Assembly: GCF_004799495.1 (NCBI RefSeq)
Contig: NZ_SSMY01000006.1
Span: 186,001 to 250,000, forward strand
Reading direction: 5' to 3'
DNA from: Sphingomonas sp.
GTDB lineage: Bacteria; Pseudomonadota; Alphaproteobacteria; Sphingomonadales; Sphingomonadaceae
Length of the DNA stretch: 64,000 nt
The first letter of the stretch is position 1. Every line of letters starts with the position of its first letter. The notes beneath the pieces are model-generated. The model was not told where the DNA came from, made no database searches, and saw nothing but the letters and a program-made list of their open reading frames with translations. This document shows positions 14,342 through 25,132 of the stretch, piece by piece. A program made the translations under genes and the position numbers.

Positions 14342-15465
14342 GGCCGCAGTCCTCCGCCTCGCTCGGCTTCGTCCCCGAACCGCTCGCCAACCTGCCGTGG
14401 AAGATCATCCTGCTGATCCTCGCGATCGGCTGTTTCGACCTGCTGGTGCTTTATTCGGCGGCGGGTGGGCACATCAGGCCCTGGGCACTGTCGCAGGGCA
14501 TTCGCTTCTTTGTGCTGCTCGCTGCGGCGATGGGGCTGTCACGCGTACGGCCCGAAATCTGGGGTATGATCAGCCTGCCCACCTATGCGGTCATCATCGT
14601 GATGCTGGTCGGCGTAGAAATATTGGGCAAGGTCGCCGGCGGCGGCCAGCGCTGGCTCGAGCTCGGCGTCATCCGCTTACAGCCGTCGGAGCTGATGAAA
14701 CCCTTCATCGTGCTGGCCTGCGCACGTTTCTACGATTTGCTCCCGCCCAGCGAGACGCGCAAGTTCGGTGCGATCTGGCCAGCGCTACTGCTGATCGGCC
14801 TGCCCGCCGGGCTGGTGATGCTGCAACCCGACCTCGGCACCGCAATGATGATCACCGCGGGGGGGATCACGATCATGTTCCTCGCTGGGATCCCGTTGCG
14901 GTTGTTCCTCGGCGGGGCGTTGCTTGCGGCGATCGCGGCACCGATCGCGTACAACTTCGTCCTCCACGACTATCAGCGCAACCGCATCGCGATCTTCCTC
15001 AACCCGGAAAGCGACCCGTTGCGCACAGGCTATCACATCACCCAGTCGAAGATCGCGATCGGATCGGGCGGCATCTGGGGCAAGGGTTTCCTCAACGGGA
15101 CGCAAAGCCACCTCGATTATTTGCCGGAAGGGCAAACCGACTTCGCGCTGGCAACGATGATGGAGGAATGGGGGCTGGCCGGCGGGGTGGCGCTGCTGCT
15201 CGCCTGGTTCGCGATCATTGGCTGGGCGATCAACATCTCGTTGCGCGCCGAAGGCCGGTTTGCCCGGCTGACCGCGGCCGGACTTGCCACCACTTTATTC
15301 TTCTACGTGTCGGTCAATATGGCGATGGTGATGGGGTTGGCGCCTGTGGTCGGCGTGCCGTTGCCGCTGATCAGCAACGGCGGTTCGTCGCAGCTCACCG
15401 TATTGCTGTGCATCGGCATCCTGATGTCGCTCGACCGCGCCAACCGCAAACAGACGCGCTGGTAG
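14338..15465 (+). CDS. rodA: rod-shape SEDS peptidoglycan glycosyltransferase RodA
   Basis: Polymerises lipid II in partnership with PBP2. The 375-residue polytopic protein shows SEDS hallmarks: LQPSELMKP, LVMLQPDLGTAMM, GSGGIWGKGFLNGTQ, FLPEGQTDF-like LPEGQTDFALATMMEEWG, and VVGVPLPLISNGGSS near the end. The ATG overlaps the mrdA stop (ATGA). Last gene of the operon, about 90 bp before tRNA-Lys. Confidence 0.97.
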   Translation: MRPQSSASLGFVPEPLANLPWKIILLILAIGCFDLLVLYSAAGGHIRPWALSQGIRFFVLLAAAMGLSRVRPEIWGMISLPTYAVIIVMLVGVEILGKVAGGGQRWLELGVIRLQPSELMKPFIVLACARFYDLLPPSETRKFGAIWPALLLIGLPAGLVMLQPDLGTAMMITAGGITIMFLAGIPLRLFLGGALLAAIAAPIAYNFVLHDYQRNRIAIFLNPESDPLRTGYHITQSKIAIGSGGIWGKGFLNGTQSHLDYLPEGQTDFALATMMEEWGLAGGVALLLAWFAIIGWAINISLRAEGRFARLTAAGLATTLFFYVSVNMAMVMGLAPVVGVPLPLISNGGSSQLTVLLCIGILMSLDRANRKQTRW

Positions 15466-15486
15466 GAATTTCACCCGCAAAAAGGG

Positions 15487-15514
15487 TTTGCAAAGCCCGG
15501 CCGCGATGCTAACG
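15487..15514 (+). promoter_or_regulatory. possible promoter of tRNA-Lys
   Basis: TTTGCA and CTAACG-like hexamers separated by 16 bases, about 37 bases ahead of the mature tRNA end. Placement is reasonable but the second box is weak. Confidence 0.3.
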
Positions 15515-15551
15515 GCCTCGCTCCCCGAACGGGGACCGCCTTTCCCGGCAT

Positions 15552-15627
<76 letters not shown>

Positions 15628-15671
15628 CCTTTTCAATGACTTAGCGGTGATCGGCGCGTTGGCGCGGGAGG

Positions 15672-15693
15672 CTAGGTAGCAAATAGGTAGCAG
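15672..15693 (+). repeat. 22-bp direct repeat inside left island end (putative integrase arm site)
   Basis: A perfect copy of 24947-24968 in the same orientation, itself built from two TAGGTAGCA units. It lies 45 bp inside the attachment repeat. In the excised circle the two copies would flank the core, as integrase arm-type sites do. Function is inferred from position. Confidence 0.7.
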
Positions 15694-15830
15694 CGTGCGC
15701 GGGCTAGAAGGGTAACACCTTCTTTGGCCGGCAATCTGGTCACTAATGCAATCCTCTGCCGTTTAGTCGCGATATATTTTTCGGGATTTCTGCTCCAACC
15801 AACATTGGGCCGATTGCGGATCGGCGCCTT

Positions 15831-15956
15831 ATGAAAGCCAAGGCACCCAGTGCATACGAGTTTCTCTGCGATGGCGAAGGCCGGTTCGGCGGTTTAGATG
15901 TTGACACGCGCCGCATCGTCGTGATCTACTTTTGTTCCAATCCGCAGTCTGCCTAA
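15831..15956 (+). CDS. possible 41-residue protein upstream of the methyltransferase
   Basis: Short frame encoding MKAKAPSAYEFLCDGEGR, then FGGLDVDTRRIVVIYFC and a stop. The ribosome site is weak. Codon choice resembles the flanking genes. It does not look like the helix-turn-helix controller proteins of some type II systems. It may simply be a chance frame in the leader of the cassette. Confidence 0.22.
   Translation: MKAKAPSAYEFLCDGEGRFGGLDVDTRRIVVIYFCSNPQSA
15901..15930 (+). promoter_or_regulatory. candidate promoter of the restriction/ABC-3C cassette
   Basis: TTGACA at 15901-15906 followed after 18 bases by TCTACT, about 100 bp before the methyltransferase start. It is the best sigma-70-like match seen in the 405-bp spacer between tRNA-Lys and the first cargo gene. 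It would fire inside the short frame at 15831-15956. Confidence 0.35.
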
Positions 15957-16032
15957 CTAGCGATCCGCAAAGCGGTTTTGTTTCGCTCGACCGGCCGCTA
16001 GCGTCGCTGTGACGTTATTTCAGGGAGCAATT

Positions 16033-17745
16033 GTGGCGCACCTCAAGCTTGCCTCAGTGCTTGCAGAGCCGTTTCTTCCGGAACTTTGTCCCGTGACAGA
16101 CGCAATTAGAACGCTTGCAGATGCCGGTGTAGATGAGCGGGGTGCGATTTTCACCCGGCGCGAGGTGGCGGACTTCGTCCTAGACCTCATCGGCTACACC
16201 GTCGACAAGCCGCTGCACAAGATGCGGCTGCTCGAACCATCATTTGGGGACGGCGATTTTCTCCTCCCCGCTGTCGAGCGGCTGGTCGAAGCGTGGCGGC
16301 GCGCAGGTGCGCCCGCGGACGCCATGCGCGACGCAATTCGGGCGGTTGAACTGCACGGCCGCTCCTACGAACGAACCCATCAGGCGGTGCAACGCGCGCT
16401 CAGCAGCGCAGGCATCAGCGAGCGCGAGGCCGAAGACATCGCCGACGTTTGGCTGTTGCAAGGCGACTACCTGCTTACGCCCTTTAATGGCGCGTTCGAC
16501 GCCGTGATTGGTAATCCGCCTTACGTTCGGCAAGAATCGATACCCGACACTCTGATTGCTGAATACCGACGCCGGTTCAGCACGATCTTTGACCGCGCCG
16601 ATCTATACGTTCCGTTCATTGAACGGTCGCTGACGCTTCTCAAGAAAGGCGGACAGCTCGGTTTCATCTGCGCCGACCGTTGGATGAAAAACCGTTACGG
16701 CGGACCGCTACGCGGCATGGTCGCGCGAAGCTACCACCTCAAAACATACGTCGATATGGTGGGAACAGATGCCTTTCACGCCGAGGTCGTCGCCTACCCA
16801 GCGATCACAATCATCGCCAAGGAACCCGGCAACGTCACCCGGCTCGCTTACCGCCCAAAAATTGAAAAGCGTTATCTCGCGGCGTTGAGCGCCGCCTTGA
16901 ACGCAGACGCCGCGCCCGCGCCGGACAGCGACGTGAAGGAAATGACGGGGATTGCCAACGGCAGCGAGCCGTGGGTGCTCGACACGAGCGCCCAGCTTGC
17001 GCTTGTTCGCCGCCTGGAACGCGACTTTCCCACTATTGAAGAGGCTCGTTGTAGAGTCGGGATCGGCGTGGCGACCGGCGCGGACCAAGCCTTTATCGGC
17101 CCGATCGACGCGCTCGACGTGGAAGACAGCCGGAAGCTGCCCCTCGTGATGACGCGCGACATCGAGCGCGGCTCGGTCGAATGGCGCGGTCTTGGCGTGG
17201 TCAATCCGTTCGGCGACAATGGCAAGCTTGTCGATCTCGCCACTTACCCGAAACTGCGGCGCTATCTGGAGGATCACCGCGACCAGATCGCGGGGCGGCA
17301 CGTCGCGCAAAAAGCGCCTGCAAATTGGTATCGCACCATCGACCGCATCTATCCCGAACTGACCTATCAGCCGAAACTTTTAATACCTGACATCAAAGGC
17401 GGCGCGCATATCGTTTACGAAAAAGGATGCTTTTACCCGCACCACAATCTCTATTTCATCACGTCGCGTGATTGGGACCTACAGGCGCTACAAACGGTTT
17501 TGATGTCTGGCATCGCGCGGCTGTTCGTCGCGGCTTATTCGACAAAAATGCGCGGCGGCTTCTTGCGTTTTCAGGCGCAGTATCTCCGCCGTATTCGTTT
17601 GCCTCATTGGGACGACGTTCCTGCGCCGATCAAGGCCAGGCTCGTCGCGTGCGCCGAGATCAAGGATGAAGCGGCGTGCAATGCAGCAGTTTATGCGCTT
17701 TACGGCATGACGGAGGCCGAAATCGCGGCGTTGAAAGAGAGTTGA
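16033..17745 (+). CDS. type II N6-adenine DNA methyltransferase, XhoI/PaeR7I-type partner
   Basis: Predicted to methylate adenine in the site cut by the adjacent endonuclease, protecting the host. The 570-residue protein has the SAM motif EPSFGDGDF at about 68-76, the catalytic NPPY at 161-164, the following [15 protein letters not shown] region typical of Eco57I/M.PaeR7I-like enzymes, and a long C-terminal target-recognition part ending [18 protein letters not shown]. The GTG at 16033 has AGGGAG 6 bases ahead; an upstream GTG at 16009 has none. The endonuclease gene starts 3 bp after the stop. Confidence 0.92.
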
Positions 17746-17748
17746 TAG

Positions 17749-18486
17749 ATGGCGCTCGATCTAGCGGATTACGAACGTCAGACCAAAGAAGCCGTCATGG
17801 CCTTCTGGGGCAACCGCGAGCAGGCGCGGCAAAAGCAGATTGAGGCGGGTGTTACCGATCAAGGTGAGCGCGCCGGCGTGACCGGCGGCAAGAATATGGA
17901 TGGGTTCACCGCTCTCATCATCGACCTTGTGAAACGGAACGGGCTAGCTCACGCGCAGATACATCAAAATCGCGCACTGCTCACGCTGCCCGGTTACTTC
18001 CGGCCGACCAAACTTTGGGATTTGTTGGTAATGATCGACGGGCGGCTGATCGCCGCCGTCGAGCTGAAGAGTCAAGTCGGCCCGTCCTTCGGCAACAATT
18101 TCAACAACCGCACCGAGGAAGCGATTGGCACCGCGCATGATCTTTCGGTTGCGTATCGGGAAGGCGCACTCGGCAAACACCCGCGACCGTTCATCGGCTG
18201 GTTAATGCTGGTTGAGGACGCGGACGCCTCGCGCCGACCAGTCACAGACCGCTCGCCGCATTTCCCGGTGTTCTCGGAGTTTCAGGGCGCGTCCTATCTC
18301 AAACGCTACGATGTTCTGTGCCAACGGCTCGTTCAGGAGCAGCTTTACACGGCGGCAGCGCTGATTGCCTCGCCGCGCAGCGCCGCCGAAGACGGCGCAT
18401 TCGCCGACCTGTCGGACCTGACCAGCGTCAAGACTTTCGTCACAGGCTTGGCGGGCCACATCGCCGCCGAGGCAGCGAGGGGCTGA
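17749..18486 (+). CDS. type II restriction endonuclease, XhoI/PaeR7I family (predicted CTCGAG)
   Basis: A 245-residue endonuclease, the same length as XhoI and PaeR7I. Recognised from family segments such as [25 protein letters not shown] and the long block [16 protein letters not shown]. The PD-(D/E)xK catalytic residues are visible as D91 (WDLLV) and E105-L-K107 (VELKSQVG). Known members cut C^TCGAG, so that site is predicted here, not proven. It directly follows the methyltransferase, with no separate controller gene in between. Confidence 0.93.
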
Positions 18487-18489
18487 TCC

Positions 18490-19575
18490 GTGGATGACTT
18501 CGAAGATATGACCGATCCGCCCGCGCCGCCGACCTTGCCGTCGGCGTCACTCTTGCAGGCGGGGCCGCCCATCGAGCCCATCTCGCGCTTGATGGTCTAT
18601 ACACCCGACCAATGGGAAGAATTTATCGAGGAGTGGGTGTCGGGAGTCGTGAAGGCTGAATACACAGCCGTCCGCCGCTTTACCGGCGCGAACGACCGCG
18701 GCATCGACATTGCCGGGTTCGCCGACGCGGCGATGCTGAACGGTGTGTGGGATCTGTATCAATGCAAGCGGTTTCAAAACAGCGTCACCCCCGGCGCTGC
18801 GTGGCCGGAAATCGGCAAAATATTGTGGCACTCGTTTCAGGGTCACTACAAAGCGCCGCGCGCCTACTATTTTATGGCCCCGAAAGGAGTTGGCACGACG
18901 CTCAATCAGCTTCTCGCGCACGCGCCTAACCTGAAGGCGCGCGTCAAAAAAGAGTGGGTCAAGAACATCGCCGACGCTATCACCGGCACCGCGGCCATCG
19001 CCCTTGAGGGCGAGTTCGCAGCTTACGTTGAAGCCTTCGACTTCTCTATTTTCAAATCAATTTCGCCGCGAGAGCTGATCGACCAGCATCGCAAGACGCC
19101 ATATTTTCTCAGTCGGTTCGGGGGCGCTCTGCCCGCCCGCCCGAAGCCGGGTGGGCCGCCCGACGACATTCAGGACCACGAGCAAAAATATGTCGGCCAA
19201 CTGCTCGCGGCTTACGGCGACCACACTAAACAGGCTGTTGCGGACGCCGCCGCGCTTGACCAATGGAAGCCGCTGCGGGAGCATTTTCGACGTTCGCGCG
19301 AGAGCTTCTACCATGCGGAGTCGTTGCGTGTGTTTGTCCGCGAGAAGGTTGAGCCCGGCACGTTCGAGACGCTGCAGAACGAGATTTACGACGGCGTGAT
19401 CGACACCGTAGATGGCCAGCACGCAGATGGCTATGAGCGCGTCAAAGCGACCGCCAAGGCCGCGCAGGAAATGTCGCTGGACGCGCACCCGCTCGGCGCG
19501 AGCGCTTTGACGAAGGACCGTCACGGCATTTGCCATCAGCTCGCCAACGAGGATCGTCTCCAATGGACGAAGTGA
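18490..19575 (+). CDS. ABC-3C (Lamassu-like) effector: restriction-endonuclease-like N-terminus plus C-terminal ABC-3C domain
   Basis: A 361-residue protein, first of three ABC-3C genes. After a proline-rich leader (about 1-33), residues 36-150 resemble a Mrr/REase fold: W42-EE(43-44)-FIEEW, GANDRGID73IAGF and LYQ91CK93RF, the expected E...D...QxK order. The C-terminal half is helical (SISPRELIDQHRKTPYFLSRFGG, then EQKYVGQLLAAYGDH), as in the CTD that couples the effector to its partners. The start GTG at 18490 is 3 bp after the endonuclease stop; ATGs at 18508 or later are alternatives. The 3' end overlaps the next gene by 13 bp. Predicted to damage DNA when the ATPase is triggered. Confidence 0.8.
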   Translation: MDDFEDMTDPPAPPTLPSASLLQAGPPIEPISRLMVYTPDQWEEFIEEWVSGVVKAEYTAVRRFTGANDRGIDIAGFADAAMLNGVWDLYQCKRFQNSVTPGAAWPEIGKILWHSFQGHYKAPRAYYFMAPKGVGTTLNQLLAHAPNLKARVKKEWVKNIADAITGTAAIALEGEFAAYVEAFDFSIFKSISPRELIDQHRKTPYFLSRFGGALPARPKPGGPPDDIQDHEQKYVGQLLAAYGDHTKQAVADAAALDQWKPLREHFRRSRESFYHAESLRVFVREKVEPGTFETLQNEIYDGVIDTVDGQHADGYERVKATAKAAQEMSLDAHPLGASALTKDRHGICHQLANEDRLQWTK

Positions 19576-20063
19576 CTCACGCGCGATCCCTGACGTTCAA
19601 CGGCCCGCTGGAAGCCGGACTGCGGGCCGTGGCCATCCTCGGCGCCGCGTTTCCTAAAGCCTTCGACATTCAGCGGATGACGGCGTTCGACTATTTGCTG
19701 GTTCATACTAGCCAGCTCGGCGGCCCCGCCGACTTGCACCCGGACAGCCCCATTCGCGCGCCTGCCACCCAGGTGCGGCGGCGAGTTGTTCAGGATGGTA
19801 TTCATCTGATGATGACACGCGATCTGATCGCGCGCGAAACGAACGATGATGGCATCGTCTATCGGGCCGGAGAAGCGGCAGCGATCTTCCTCGACTCCCT
19901 TCAAGCGCCATATTTGCGCGAAATGTGCGGTCGGGCCGGATGGCTTGTTCATCATCTTGCCCGTTATACGGATCAAGAGTTTGATGCGCTGATGCGGCGC
20001 TTCTTCGATCAATGGCTGATCGAGTTTCAGCAGACGGAGCAGAGTTTGGGGGCCGAAGCATGA
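19563..20063 (+). CDS. ABC-3C system middle component
   Basis: A 166-residue protein placed between the effector and the ATPase, as in ABC three-component systems. The N-terminus (FNGPLEAGLRAVAILGAAFP) and the core FDYLLVHTSQLGGPADLHP resemble middle components I know of this class. The remainder looks like a winged-helix domain (QVRRRVVQDGIHLMMTRDLI, then YRAGEAAAIFLDSL). The ATG at 19563 lies inside the end of the effector gene and the stop overlaps the ATPase start (ATGA), so all three subunits are translationally coupled. Confidence 0.8.
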   Translation: MDEVTHARSLTFNGPLEAGLRAVAILGAAFPKAFDIQRMTAFDYLLVHTSQLGGPADLHPDSPIRAPATQVRRRVVQDGIHLMMTRDLIARETNDDGIVYRAGEAAAIFLDSLQAPYLREMCGRAGWLVHHLARYTDQEFDALMRRFFDQWLIEFQQTEQSLGAEA

Positions 20064-21952
20064 CGCGTGGCCTACGCCTCAGGTTTCTTAGCTTTCACGG
20101 CCCCTCAGCCGAAGCGGCCGTCGTGGAGTTCGGGCCTGGCCTTAACGTTATTTACGGGGCGTCGAATACCGGCAAATCGTTCATCCTGAACGCCGTTGAT
20201 TTCATGCTCGGCGGCAAGCCGCCATTGCGCGACATTCCCGAACGCGAAGGCTATGATCGCGTTCTGCTCGCTGTCGAAACGCTTGCGGGCGATCAGTTCA
20301 CGGTCAGCCGATCCGTAAACGGCGGCGCATTCACGCTGTTCGACGGACTGCACGCGGCCGAGCTGCCCGTCGATCAAGGCAAGATTCTAGCCGACATTCA
20401 TAACGACAAACGGGACGATAATCTTTCAGCCTACCTGCTCAACCTTATCGACCTGACGCAGAAGCGCATCCGCAAGAACAAGCGCGGTGACACGCAAAGT
20501 CTCAGCTTCAGAAACTTGGCACGACTGATCCTTATCAACGAGCAAGAAATCATTCAGGAGCGATCTCCGCTCTCGGACGGCAATGTAGTCGCTGACACTG
20601 CCAACACCTCCGTATTCAAACTGCTTCTAACTGGCGTTGATGACAGTGCATTCACGGCGGGCCAGAAACCGACTGCTGAGGACCAGTTACGGGGCGGGCA
20701 GATCGACCTGCTGGATCAGCTTATTGGCGATTATGAGCGCCAAGTTAATGAGTTGGCTGGCAAGCCTGACGAGCTGCAAGAGCAGCTCGCAAGGCTTGAA
20801 AACACAATGGACAGCCAGAGCGCCCAACTAGCCGTAACGGAAGCGCAGTTTAAGGAAGCGACCGTTCAGCGGCGCGACGTGGCAAAACGAGTTGAGGAAG
20901 CCAACAACCGCTTGACCGAGATCACAGCGTTGCTGGATCGGTTCACGTTGCTCAACGCGCATTATCGCTCCGACCTCGAGCGCCTGTCGGCGATTGAAGA
21001 GGCGGGCAGCCTCTTCGGTGCCTTGGGGGACGCGACCTGTCCGCTGTGCGGCGCATTGAAAGAACACCAGGCGAAGGCCGATTGCGAAGGCGACGTTGAT
21101 CAAGTCGTTGCGGCGGCCGCAGCGGAGATAGCCAAGATTAAAGTGCGGCAGACCGACCTTGCCGACACCATGACGACGCTACGCGAGGAAGCGGTCAGCT
21201 TCGAGCGCCGCTTGCCCAGACTCGAGTCTAGATTTCGGGAGTTATCCGGCGAAATCGACTCCGTGGTCGCGCCAAATTTGCGCCAGCTTCGCGCGAGCTA
21301 CAAGGAACTGGCGGACAAGGGCGGCGAGGTCAGGGAGGCGCTCGCCATCCATCGCGGCTTGAGCGACCTGATTGAACGCAAGGCCAAACTGGAAAAGGAG
21401 GACGAGGCTCGCTTTGGAAGCGCCAACGGTTCCACAGACTTTGGGCTTTCCACGGCCACCGCCGATAAGTTCGCGTCGTTGATTCAGACGATCCTCCAAG
21501 AGTGGCATTTCCCCAACGCGGATCGCGTTCACTTCGACCTCAGCACGCGCGATCTCGTAATTGGCGGGAAGAACCGAATCGCGTTTGGCAAAGGTCTTCG
21601 GGCGATCACGCAAGCCGCATTCACTATCGGACTCATGGAGTATTGTCGTCTAAATCAAACGGCACATCCCGGCTTTGTGATGCTAGACTCGCCATTGCTG
21701 TCCTACCGCGAACCGGAAGCGGGGGCAGACGATTCCGATGATTTGCGCGGGACCGACCTCAACGCGAGCTTCTTCGACTACATCGCCAACCTACCCGAGG
21801 ACCGCCAAATCATCATTATTGAGAACACCGATCCACCGCCACAAATACGGAAGTCCGAGCGTACGGCGCTCTTTACCGGTGTGCTCGGAAAAGGGCGGCC
21901 CGGCCTTTTTCCCGAGCCCAAAAAAGGTGAGTTTGACGACCTGCTGGGATGA
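20060..21952 (+). CDS. ABC-3C (Lamassu-like) Rad50/SMC-type ABC ATPase
   Basis: Sensor-motor ATPase of the cassette. The 630-residue protein has the Walker A GASNTGKS at 33-40, then a long charged helical region (about 185-450) interrupted by a zinc-hook-like CPLC at 327-330 with a further cysteine at 342. The C-terminal head carries AFGKGLRAITQAAFTIGL (signature region) and Walker B FVMLDSPLLSY near 540-548. The final part (DRQIIIIENTDPPP) is typical of these ATPases. In the related Lamassu/DdmABC family the ATPase recognises invading DNA structures; that role here is inference. Confidence 0.88.
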   Translation: MTRGLRLRFLSFHGPSAEAAVVEFGPGLNVIYGASNTGKSFILNAVDFMLGGKPPLRDIPEREGYDRVLLAVETLAGDQFTVSRSVNGGAFTLFDGLHAAELPVDQGKILADIHNDKRDDNLSAYLLNLIDLTQKRIRKNKRGDTQSLSFRNLARLILINEQEIIQERSPLSDGNVVADTANTSVFKLLLTGVDDSAFTAGQKPTAEDQLRGGQIDLLDQLIGDYERQVNELAGKPDELQEQLARLENTMDSQSAQLAVTEAQFKEATVQRRDVAKRVEEANNRLTEITALLDRFTLLNAHYRSDLERLSAIEEAGSLFGALGDATCPLCGALKEHQAKADCEGDVDQVVAAAAAEIAKIKVRQTDLADTMTTLREEAVSFERRLPRLESRFRELSGEIDSVVAPNLRQLRASYKELADKGGEVREALAIHRGLSDLIERKAKLEKEDEARFGSANGSTDFGLSTATADKFASLIQTILQEWHFPNADRVHFDLSTRDLVIGGKNRIAFGKGLRAITQAAFTIGLMEYCRLNQTAHPGFVMLDSPLLSYREPEAGADDSDDLRGTDLNASFFDYIANLPEDRQIIIIENTDPPPQIRKSERTALFTGVLGKGRPGLFPEPKKGEFDDLLG

Positions 21953-22220
21953 GCTGGCCCAGCGCTCGCAAACGGCAATCTCAGGATAGCAGCTGCCCTT
22001 TCGGAATGTCGGAAATGGAGCCCAAAGCGGCCGACGAGCAGCGTTAAGTTATCCAATACCCGTTAAAATGCTCTCAGATTCTTCAGAGACAAGATCTAAG
22101 CCGTCCTAGGCACCGGACAGCCAAATTCCGCAACATCTTCTCTACGGCCTTCCTAGGGCTAAATTTGGGCCATCGCCTCCTAGAGCAAGCCGAGTAACCA
22201 AACCGCGCCACTTCTGATCA

Positions 22221-22366
22221 GCAATTTGCCCTACACCCTTTTGCAATTTGCCAAGTTACCGGGTATCTTTTCCCCTCAGTCAATATAAATAATTGATTTT
22301 TATATATATTAGGGGCCAAATGAATGAATATATATATACATGGGAAGGGGTAAGTTACCGGGTATC
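22221..22366 (+). promoter_or_regulatory. AT-rich spacer with repeated operator-like sequences
   Basis: The 451-bp stretch after the ATPase (21953-22403) has no convincing gene. It contains a 15-bp direct repeat, AAGTTACCGGGTATC, at 22253-22267 and 22352-22366. Each copy holds an imperfect dyad GTTACC-G-GGTATC. GCAATTTGCC is repeated at 22221-22230 and 22243-22252. Between the 15-mers is a run of TATATA-rich DNA, unique in this GC-rich window. It could hold the promoter and operators for the AlpA-side genes or an excision control site. Confidence 0.5.
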
Positions 22367-22403
22367 ATGTGTTTTTGAAATGATGTAAGAGCCGAGGCCG
22401 CGG

Positions 22404-22835
22404 TCAAAAACGGCTCGGATTGGTATGCTGATATGGCATCCGGGCAGCATCTCCTGTGGTCTTGCGCGAGATCGACAATCGATCGCCTTCGAGCACAACG
22501 ACAAACTCACCGCGTCCGCTGCGTTTAACGTACGCGGCGGTTCGGCGAGCCTTTTTCAAGTCAGCTTCATTCGCGCCCTCTGGAAGCAGGGCGTGTTCTT
22601 CCCCGACGTTCAGCCGATACCAAGGTGCGAGCTTGGACTGTTGGCCAGGATAAACCCGAAGCCATAGGACGTGGTCGCCTCGTCGAGTAGCGCTGAAGGC
22701 TCTCTCACTCGTCCGATAACTCCGCGCCAAACGGGCCAAGCGCTTGTGAAGCTGGTCGATGCTCTCGCCGTCTTTCGGGAAGATAATCTGGCCCGATCGG
22801 GTGGCGGTATAATACAGCGGGCCCACCGTTTTCAT
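22404..22835 (-). CDS. hypothetical protein, partner of AlpA-type regulator
   Basis: A 143-residue basic protein of unknown function. Visible features are a short N-terminal strand region (GPLYYTATRSGQIIFPKDG), a helical Arg-rich middle (LHKRLARLARSYRTSERAF), and no membrane segment or catalytic motif I can name. The ATG overlaps the stop of the AlpA-type gene upstream (ATGA), so the two are co-translated. It could be an excision or replication accessory, but nothing in the sequence proves this. Confidence 0.65.
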   Translation of the reverse strand: MKTVGPLYYTATRSGQIIFPKDGESIDQLHKRLARLARSYRTSERAFSATRRGDHVLWLRVYPGQQSKLAPWYRLNVGEEHALLPEGANEADLKKARRTAAYVKRSGRGEFVVVLEGDRLSISRKTTGDAARMPYQHTNPSRF

Positions 22836-23041
22836 CGGCCCGCCCCAGCGATTTCGTTGACTGGGTCGATTGTAGCGGCCTTCACGAAGTCTTCGAGGTC
22901 CTCAACGCGATATCGCACGCTTGACCCGAGCTTGCGATAAGCTGGACCCTTCCCGGCCCAGCGCCAACGGCTCAGCGTCTTCGGAGCGAGGCCCAGAAAC
23001 GAGGCCGCGTCAGCCTCGCGAAGCATGAAATTTGCGACCAT
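22832..23041 (-). CDS. AlpA/excisionase-type helix-turn-helix protein
   Basis: A 69-residue MerR-like DNA-binding protein: MLREADAASFLGLAPKTLSRWRW forms the helix-turn-helix and GPAYRKLGSSVRYRVEDLEDFV the wing, the standard layout of phage and island excisionase/AlpA regulators. The start at 23041 is favoured over 23056 by an AAGGCG stretch upstream. Such proteins usually activate or direct excision by the integrase of the same element, which is encoded about 0.7 kb away. Confidence 0.85.
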   Translation of the reverse strand: MVANFMLREADAASFLGLAPKTLSRWRWAGKGPAYRKLGSSVRYRVEDLEDFVKAATIDPVNEIAGAGR

Positions 23042-23386
23042 CGGAGCGCCTTTCATCGTCGTGGAGAGGCCTCAGGCTTAGCGGGACGTTCTTGAGCGAT
23101 TCCAGGGTTTTCAGGTCAACCATGGGCAACCAATCCGAGAAATCCGCCCACTCCGCACAAGCCCGCGCGTTGCAGTTCAACTCATGATCTGCCAGGTTCG
23201 AACTGCGCACGGTCAGTCCCGAGCGTGGGGCGTGGAATCCCCAAGACCCAAGGTCCGGTCGAGCTATTCGGCCGGTCGGCTGTCGCCATGTCCAAGGCTT
23301 TGCCCAAAAGCGGCAGCGCCTTGTCCTTGGGCAGGGATTCCAACGGCCGGCTCCGTCCGGTCTTCGCCCTTTCGATGGAGGGCGTG
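23042..23386. other. 345-bp spacer without a convincing gene
   Basis: Open frames here on the minus strand (for example 23010-23429) lack a ribosome site, overlap the AlpA-type gene start and have composition unlike protein, with many Trp, Cys and Arg. The segment probably holds the divergent promoters of the AlpA-type gene (minus) and the small membrane protein (plus). I see no clear repeat. Confidence 0.4.
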
Positions 23387-23749
23387 ATGGACAATCTACC
23401 TGTTTCAGAATCTCGACTGGGGCCTTCACGCAAGCGGGAATGGGGTAAGGCAGGAAAGCTCATTCTGGCGATAGGCGTCGGGTATCTGGCGTTTACCTGG
23501 CTCATAATGACATTGTCGCCGGCACCTGATCCGAACCAGCTTAGCGAAATCGAGAAGTCTGTAGCCGCCGATATCGCGCGCGAAGAGCATATCCCATTGG
23601 CAAGCGCAGAGGCTCGCGTACGCGAGGCGCGCGGTTCCGCCGACGATCTTCTGCGCCGGCAAAGGGAAAACGCGCGTCGGCGCGACGAGACTGACGCGCT
23701 CCGCACTAGCGTGTGCGAAATTGATCCAAGCTCACCACGTTGCCCATAG
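23387..23749 (+). CDS. small membrane-anchored protein of unknown function
   Basis: A 120-residue protein with a basic N-terminus (SRKREWGKAGK), one membrane helix (LILAIGVGYLAFTWLIMTL) and a charged helical C-terminal part (ADIAREEHIPLASAEARVREARG, LLRRQRENARRRDE) ending in a two-cysteine tail (CEIDPSSPRC). The ATG at 23387 has GGAGGG five bases ahead; longer frames to 23225 lack support. Its 3' 44 bp overlap the 3' end of the convergent integrase gene. Function unknown; single-pass topology with a coiled region is all that can be said. Confidence 0.6.
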   Translation: MDNLPVSESRLGPSRKREWGKAGKLILAIGVGYLAFTWLIMTLSPAPDPNQLSEIEKSVAADIAREEHIPLASAEARVREARGSADDLLRRQRENARRRDETDALRTSVCEIDPSSPRCP

Positions 23750-24932
23750 TGCTATCCGACGCCTTGTCCTTCAAAGCCAAGCGCAGCAGTTCGTCACCGA
23801 TCGCGTCGGCGGCGGCGCGAACTGGACTTTGCGCAAGATGCGCGTAGCGGCTCGTGGTCGTCGCCTGCGTATGGCCTAGCAACCTACCGAGCATCGGCAG
23901 GCTGAACCCGAGCCCTACGCCGACGCTGGCATAGGTATGACGAAGATCGTGGATTCGGACGTCGTCCAGTTCGGCGAGCGCACGCAGGGCACGCCACGGC
24001 TTTTGCAGATTGACGAGGGACGCGCCTTTACGCTGGCCCGCAATCACAAACGTTGGATCACAGCCAGCGGCCTTTAGGTCTTTGAGTATGTCGATAGCAG
24101 GATCGCCAAGCGAGACCAGCAGTGCGCCGCTCTTGGTATCTGGCAGGCGCAGCAGCCCCGCATCGAGATCGACCCACACCCAACGCAAACCGAGGATTTC
24201 GTTCAGCCTGCGTCCGGTGAGAATGAGTAGCTTGAGCGCGGCGATTGCGCTCGGCGACGCCGCCGCCTCACCCTCTTCCGAGTGGAGCACTTTCCACAGG
24301 CGAGCGATTTCCGCCTCCGTTAGATAGCGCTCGCGCTTCTCTTCGGGAAATCGGTCGATATTCTTGGCCGGGTTTGAGCCATCCGGCCGCAGGCCCCATC
24401 GTTCGGCGAGCGAGAACATCTTGCTCGCGAGGGCAAGCATTCTATTTGCCTCGTATGGCGTCGCGCGGAGCGAATGATGCATGGCAGCAATGTCGGCTCG
24501 ATTTACCGACGCAACCTTCCGCGAGCCGAGTGCCGGGAGAATATGCTGATCGATCAGCCGGCGATCGTTACGTACCGAACTGGCCTTTTTCCGCGTCTCC
24601 GCATGTTCCGCGAGATAACGCGCGCAAAGGTCGCGCATGATCGGGGCCGCTCGGCTTTCGGCACGCGACTGTGATGGGTCCTTCCCGCTCGCGACTTGGG
24701 CAAGCCAACGTTTGGCGATATCGCGCGCAGCTTCGGGACGCAGCGGCCCGTGAAGACCGATCGTTGGCCGGCGCTGCTGGCCATCCGCGGTTCGGTAATA
24801 GAGGAAATAGGTCCGCTTGCCTTTGGGCGTAACCTTGCATCCGAAACCGGCCAGCTCGGTATCCCAAAGAATCACGTCCGAGCTGCCCGGCTGGACCGCT
24901 TCGACGTTGCGCACGGTGAGTTTTGATCGCAT
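23706..24932 (-). CDS. tyrosine-type site-specific integrase
   Basis: Recombines the island into and out of tRNA-Lys. The 408-residue protein has the P4-type N-terminal DUF4102-like domain (LTVRNVEAVQPG, GFGCKVTPKGKRTYFLYYR), a SAM-like core-binding domain (about 95-185) and the catalytic domain with R241 (LTGRRLNEILGLRW), HDLRH at 328-332, H354 (LLGH) and nucleophile Y363 (SRYAHL). It reads inward from the attR end, and a 22-bp arm-like repeat lies 15 bp upstream of its start, so it may be autoregulated by Int binding. Confidence 0.96.
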   Translation of the reverse strand: MRSKLTVRNVEAVQPGSSDVILWDTELAGFGCKVTPKGKRTYFLYYRTADGQQRRPTIGLHGPLRPEAARDIAKRWLAQVASGKDPSQSRAESRAAPIMRDLCARYLAEHAETRKKASSVRNDRRLIDQHILPALGSRKVASVNRADIAAMHHSLRATPYEANRMLALASKMFSLAERWGLRPDGSNPAKNIDRFPEEKRERYLTEAEIARLWKVLHSEEGEAAASPSAIAALKLLILTGRRLNEILGLRWVWVDLDAGLLRLPDTKSGALLVSLGDPAIDILKDLKAAGCDPTFVIAGQRKGASLVNLQKPWRALRALAELDDVRIHDLRHTYASVGVGLGFSLPMLGRLLGHTQATTTSRYAHLAQSPVRAAADAIGDELLRLALKDKASDSTMGNVVSLDQFRTR

Positions 24933-24946
24933 CTGCCACCCCGTTT

Positions 24947-24968
24947 CTAGGTAGCAAATAGGTAGCAG
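24947..24968 (+). repeat. 22-bp direct repeat inside right island end (putative integrase arm site)
   Basis: Identical to 15672-15693. It lies between the integrase start and the attachment repeat at 25086. A further GGTAGC occurs at 24991-24996. The position in the integrase promoter region would let Int binding affect its own expression. Confidence 0.7.
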
Positions 24969-25085
24969 AACGCAGCGAATCGCAGCAACGGGTAGCGACG
25001 TTCACCACTTATTTTTCTGCAAGATTCCAATGCAGTAGCGCACTGTAGCGCAACTCAGCGCACGCCAGCGAAACGCACAAAACGA

Positions 25086-25132
25086 GACTCTTAATCAGCG
25101 GGTCCTAGGTTCGAGCCCTAGTGCGTCCACCA
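25086..25132 (+). repeat. island attachment repeat, right copy (tRNA-Lys 3' fragment)
   Basis: The 47-bp duplicate of the tRNA-Lys 3' end. The upstream 29 bases of the tRNA are absent, so this is not a functional tRNA gene. Between it and cysD (25133-25227) I see no gene. Confidence 0.93.

Follow-up and report, generated by a model that had tools for sequence, protein, structure and literature searches.

The window, by which we mean the whole 64,000-nt stretch of DNA analysed, is part of contig 11 of a 3.03-Mb genome. It contains a tRNA-Lys gene whose 3' end recurs downstream as a perfect copy, and a gene for a tyrosine integrase lies near the right end of the segment delimited in this way (Table 1). 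The tRNA 3' end is repeated perfectly over 47 nt, and together with the integrase these repeats mark the 9505-bp stretch from 15628 to 25132 as a tRNA-targeted integrative element, presumably a mobile one. Its GC content is 58.9%, versus 66.3% in the remaining window. The element carries a predicted type II restriction-modification (RM) pair, followed by three genes of the Lamassu/ABC-3C type.

Table 1. Features of the tRNA-Lys element and of related loci
Feature	Coordinates	Strand	Basis
tRNA-Lys (CTT), integration site	15552..15627	+	ARAGORN, Rfam
Left attachment repeat, final 47 nt of tRNA-Lys	15581-15627		repeat search
22-nt repeat, left copy	15672..15693	no strand	identical at 24947-24968
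N6-adenine DNA methyltransferase, XhoI/PaeR7I type	16033..17745	+	Eco57I and TaqI_C domains, NPPY
XhoI/PaeR7I-family type II restriction endonuclease, 245 aa	17749 (ATG)..18486 (TGA)	+	Pfam PF04555, PADLOC REase_II
lmuA, Lamassu/ABC-3C effector with CTD6	18490..19575	+	CTD6 1.5e-44; PADLOC LmuA 7.5e-121
lmuC, ABC-3C middle component 2	19563..20063	+	MC2 1.3e-45; PADLOC LmuC 1.7e-46
lmuB, SMC/Rad50-like ATPase	20060..21952	+	PADLOC LmuB 5.3e-199; listed ORF opens at 20012
143-aa island ORF	22404..22835	-	ORF list
HTH_17 protein, possibly excisionase-like	22832..23056	-	Pfam 1e-11
Tyrosine integrase	23706..24932	-	Pfam Phage_integrase 7.4e-18
22-nt repeat, right copy	24947..24968	no strand	repeat search
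Right attachment repeat, 47 nt, identical to the left one	25086..25132	+	repeat search
Mrr-type restriction endonuclease genes at other Lamassu loci	L093, L094, L096: 5934-6929; L171: 5067-6062

The tRNA-Lys element and its five packed genes

Two further ORFs of the element gave no domain assignment at E up to 1, the 143-aa ORF against Pfam and NCBIfam and a 174-aa ORF (23225-23749) against Pfam. The two 22-nt repeats, each of which contains TAGGTAGCA two times, lie close to the two ends of the element, and they are possibly arm-type sites of the integrase. The stretch 14400-15640, which includes the tRNA-Lys gene and, beside it, what we take to be a rodA-like gene, found a match in 40 of the 41 genomes from the genus (our own among them), with two of these matches limited to a short piece. 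In one relative (G012) a second tRNA end is found 8.3 kb downstream, with an integrase-like ORF, recognised by eye, adjoining it. In another (G784) the tRNA-Lys site is followed first by a Gabija pair (GajA and GajB; L157:12278-15918) and then, at about 21 kb, by another tRNA end. Judging from the six relatives inspected, the site has the appearance of an island hotspot.

The methyltransferase and endonuclease genes are separated by 3 nt, as are the endonuclease gene and lmuA, and the starts of lmuC and lmuB overlap the preceding gene. Because of this tight packing, the five genes look like a single operon, the members of which would be co-transcribed. Two of the starts deserve comment. The methyltransferase ORF as computed opens at GTG 16009 (578 aa), but GTG 16033, already chosen in the initial annotation, appears the best placed start because CAGGGAG directly precedes it. 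Similarly, the listed lmuC ORF opens at 19530, and the ATG at 19563 agrees with the start of the gene in L002, a related locus described below.

The restriction-modification pair and its predicted specificity

The initial annotation had assigned the second gene of the pair to the XhoI/PaeR7I endonucleases, and domain searches bear this out. Its product matches the Pfam XhoI family with an E value of 4.7e-99 (330.4 bits for a curated cut-off of 25, domain positions 1-190 of 191) and PADLOC REase_II with an E value of 6.3e-120, so that, as a reading of sequence, the family assignment is solid and far beyond chance. Plasmid records matching the endonuclease number 110, of which 33 cover at least 80% of the query. 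At least 510 relatives were confirmed, and 80 of them, from named genomes, were kept for comparison. One gene of the family (L078:8001-8732) has a stop codon inside its translation, and is likely a pseudogene or the product of a sequencing error.

The residues previously singled out, D91 and E105-L106-K107, occupy the positions given for them; D91, E105 and K107 are invariant in all 82 aligned rows, and L106 is conserved in 64 of the 82. A predicted model of the protein is of some use because sequence searches of solved structures returned chance-level matches only, with no XhoI-family structure found. In the AlphaFold2 model (54 sequences, pLDDT 87), D91 lies within strand 88-96, and E105 and K107 within strand 99-109. 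Restriction endonucleases and the nuclease NucC fill the top rows of its VIA-align comparison (PspGI, Z 10.3, rmsd 3.1 with 171 aligned; NgoMIV, 9.5; NucC, 9.2; BstEII, 9.0), which also includes mitoribosome chains at Z 7.7. Foldseek by itself found nothing in the PDB at E <= 0.001, and the top of its list was taken by R2 retrotransposon proteins, with E values no better than 0.0076. The fold is thus predicted to be of the PD-(D/E)XK restriction-enzyme type, with D91, E105 and K107 as the catalytic residues.

The methyltransferase matches Pfam Eco57I (4.7e-25) and TaqI_C (1.1e-6) as well as PADLOC MTase_II (1.7e-248), and domain search and alignment together give it an N6A-type NPPY motif and a TaqI-like target domain. 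The NPPY motif, also named in the initial annotation, is found at residue 169 of the 578-aa ORF, and its first three residues (N, P, P) do not vary in any of the 76 aligned rows. The PaeR7I system of plasmid pRSB105 resembles the island pair in several respects: both genes are present, in the methyltransferase-then-endonuclease order, with the same domain make-up and the conserved D, E and K, and they are 61% (methyltransferase) and 77% (endonuclease, across 244 of 245 residues) identical to their island counterparts. However, that system is plasmid-borne whereas the island pair sits in a chromosomal tRNA-Lys element, and an invertase gene is annotated upstream of it, which the island does not have. 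Moreover, only on the island is the endonuclease gene followed by a Lamassu operon; the Lamassu look-up among the 110 matching plasmid records covered pRSB105.

The characterised PaeR7I recognises CTCGAG and cleaves after the first base, with m6A at the fifth base (PMC3031569). m6A at CTCGAG is also reported in natural methylomes, for example at 28 of 28 sites of Photorhabdus luminescens TT01 (PMC6092372). Because of this characterised specificity and of the identity between the island endonuclease and the annotated paeR7IR product, our best prediction for the pair is C^TCGAG cleavage with m6A in CTCGAG. We considered whether an XhoI-family pair might have diverged in specificity towards a related site, for example a degenerate or a shifted one. 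Indeed, against the 80 relatives the methyltransferase shows lower identity (51-67% where matched) than the endonuclease does (66-82%). Nevertheless, the closeness to paeR7IR argues against such a drift, as does the invariance of 58 of 245 endonuclease columns among 54 rows, these rows being chosen close relatives (67-83% identity to the query) whose own specificities are likewise a matter of prediction. We therefore regard a drifted specificity as highly improbable.

The number of CTCGAG sites lends the predicted specificity no clear independent support. The window contains 25 of them, the two noted previously at 20975 and 21221, which both fall within lmuB, and 23 others. This compares with 31.5 in dinucleotide shuffles, 88 of 100 of which reach 25, and with 43.1 expected by the maximal Markov estimate. 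Genome-wide there are 1265 sites, or 417 per Mb, a density that is lower in 31 of 40 same-genus genomes. Relative to the reversed control word, the ratio is 1.35, and six of the 40 fall below this value; an XhoI-family match was found in none of these 40 genomes. There is no clear avoidance of CTCGAG in the genome, and avoidance as a separate argument for specificity was dropped, the counts being mixed. The earlier remark that the methyltransferase must act before cutting is true but unremarkable: because the whole genome contains so many CTCGAG sites, the need for protection is not special to those of the island.

Another reading of the pair is that the restriction gene is inactive or silent with methylation alone active, or that both genes are silent. 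A consensus scan just upstream of the methyltransferase gene found no sigma-70-like promoter, which would fit, such a scan being a weak test. Against this, the five ORFs are all open and the catalytic residues of the endonuclease are in place, and we find a silent or half-silent pair improbable.

The Lamassu operon and its combination with the RM pair

Judged by its domains, the segment 18490-21952 is a complete Lamassu/ABC-3C system, with a CTD-bearing lmuA, a middle component and an SMC-like lmuB in one operon. The initial annotation made no mention of these genes, which lie immediately 3' of the endonuclease gene. LmuB contains a CPLCG motif; a review lists a similar motif, the zinc hook, in many LmuB proteins (PMC10586767). 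As for LmuA, a D...QCK motif visible by eye and a match to Pfam Mrr_cat at E 0.033, under the curated cut-off, hint that the protein may contain an Mrr-like nuclease part; the LmuA of L002 gave no Mrr_cat match at E up to 0.1. The Lamassu genes of Aminobacter pMDW2 share the lmuA, lmuC, lmuB order and are 63-67% identical to those of the island. LmuA relatives of the island type are uncommon: at E <= 1e-10 they turned up in 6 of 396 genomes from the order and in 13 of 398 from the phylum, our own genome counted in both.

We then looked at the combination from both sides. Among the 80 endonuclease relatives, eight of whose loci stop less than 1 kb beyond the endonuclease gene, a single one adjoins Lamassu: L002, from a Caulobacterales MAG, has the identical five-gene order, with 2-nt gaps between methyltransferase and endonuclease and between endonuclease and lmuA. 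An ArdC-type anti-restriction gene (ArdcN; L002:12420-13352) is found just 3' of the five genes of that locus. In L029, Lamassu is distant from the endonuclease relative and in the opposite orientation. None of nine endonuclease relatives on viral contigs matched the Lamassu queries in the DNA examined. Scans of viral contigs gave no LmuB relative and one LmuA locus, its upstream end cut off, and phage records gave no endonuclease match.

Starting from Lamassu, we surveyed 40 loci for which upstream DNA was available (the window, L002, L029, L088-L096, L098, L099, L107-L124 and L171-L178), one of which, L118, has lmuA alone; L106 was omitted because it begins at a contig edge. In this non-random sample, which L002 and L029 entered through the endonuclease search, in which many loci were picked for closeness and near-identical plasmids were left unmerged, an XhoI pair lies directly upstream of Lamassu in two loci, an Mrr-type nuclease gene overlaps lmuA by 4 nt in four mutually close ones (L093, L094, L096 and L171), and the remaining 34 lack both immediately upstream in the same orientation. 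L098 and L124 have an Mrr-type gene nearby on the opposite strand. A HigA-like gene precedes the Mrr-type gene in L093 and L094, where it is annotated, and in L171, where it was recognised by eye.

With a type II RM pair ending 3 nt before it, the island operon thus differs from 38 of the 40 Lamassu loci inspected, and within the loci inspected the combination of XhoI pair and Lamassu is rare. A conserved RM-Lamassu association as a rule is unsupported by these counts. This Lamassu subgroup has come to have nucleases of two distinct kinds at its 5' side. Nuclease genes acquired upstream of Lamassu or other defence genes have been described (PMC12799240), and there too the added nuclease stands at the 5' side of the effector gene; the cases described in that work, however, are MBL-fold nucleases paired with proteases, whereas on the island the addition is an entire type II RM pair, and no protease turned up there. 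In the titles and abstract openings listed for literature on Lamassu with RM, double-strand breaks or type II restriction, the five-gene operon was not found.

Two defence systems side by side or one unit

We consider it very probable that the locus holds a PaeR7I/XhoI-family type IIP pair, of predicted CTCGAG specificity, which heads a putative five-gene operon with Lamassu on the 9505-bp tRNA-Lys element. The analysis shows the genes with their order and spacing, the families, the conserved residues, a predicted fold and the attachment repeats; specificity, activity, co-transcription and mobility are what we infer from these. According to this scenario, the methyltransferase would N6-methylate the A of CTCGAG and so protect the host, and the endonuclease, through its PD-(D/E)XK site, would cut unmethylated CTCGAG in incoming DNA as a first line of defence. 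Loss of the RM pair could kill segregants, thereby holding the island in place; post-segregational killing by PaeR7I has been described in E. coli (PMC3031569). As a second line, probably an abortive one, Lamassu would come into play.

Alternatively, the two systems could work as one unit, in which the Rad50-like LmuB would detect breaks that the endonuclease makes in incoming DNA, with release of the LmuA nuclease as the result. A 2023 review describes the trigger of Lamassu as not well understood and proposes abnormal DNA structures, ends or hairpins for example, as what the system recognises (PMC10586767), which would suit this reading. The shared gene order and close spacing in L002 also speak for it, together with the endonuclease tree, in which the window and L002 are sisters (support 98/94), and the overlap of Mrr-type genes with lmuA. 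However, an XhoI pair precedes Lamassu in only 2 of 40 loci and Lamassu adjoins 1 of 80 endonuclease relatives; therefore, neither system needs the other. The other trees also argue against it: in the lmuA tree L002 falls with three plasmid loci without an XhoI pair, and the window lies outside this group (83/86); the lmuB tree leaves the window and L002 both unresolved and not paired; and in a quick methyltransferase tree they are not paired either. Supported forks are few in the lmuA and lmuB trees, and shared descent of the whole five-gene unit in the window and L002 is not clearly confirmed by these three trees. Moreover, the linkage is accounted for by the two systems being carried on one defence island. 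Altogether, we judge a single unit unlikely; that restriction breaks trigger Lamassu is possible, gene order being what speaks for it.

The RM pair alone is ordinary because the XhoI family is common, and it would add one predicted CTCGAG system to a large known family, whereas the composite RM-Lamassu operon is unusual and gives the locus some modest extra interest. If the endonuclease and Lamassu did act as one unit, a sequence-blind suicide sensor would gain a sequence-specific input and a mark of self, through CTCGAG breaks in unmodified DNA. The joint operon may be a natural pair for asking whether Lamassu responds to restriction breaks.
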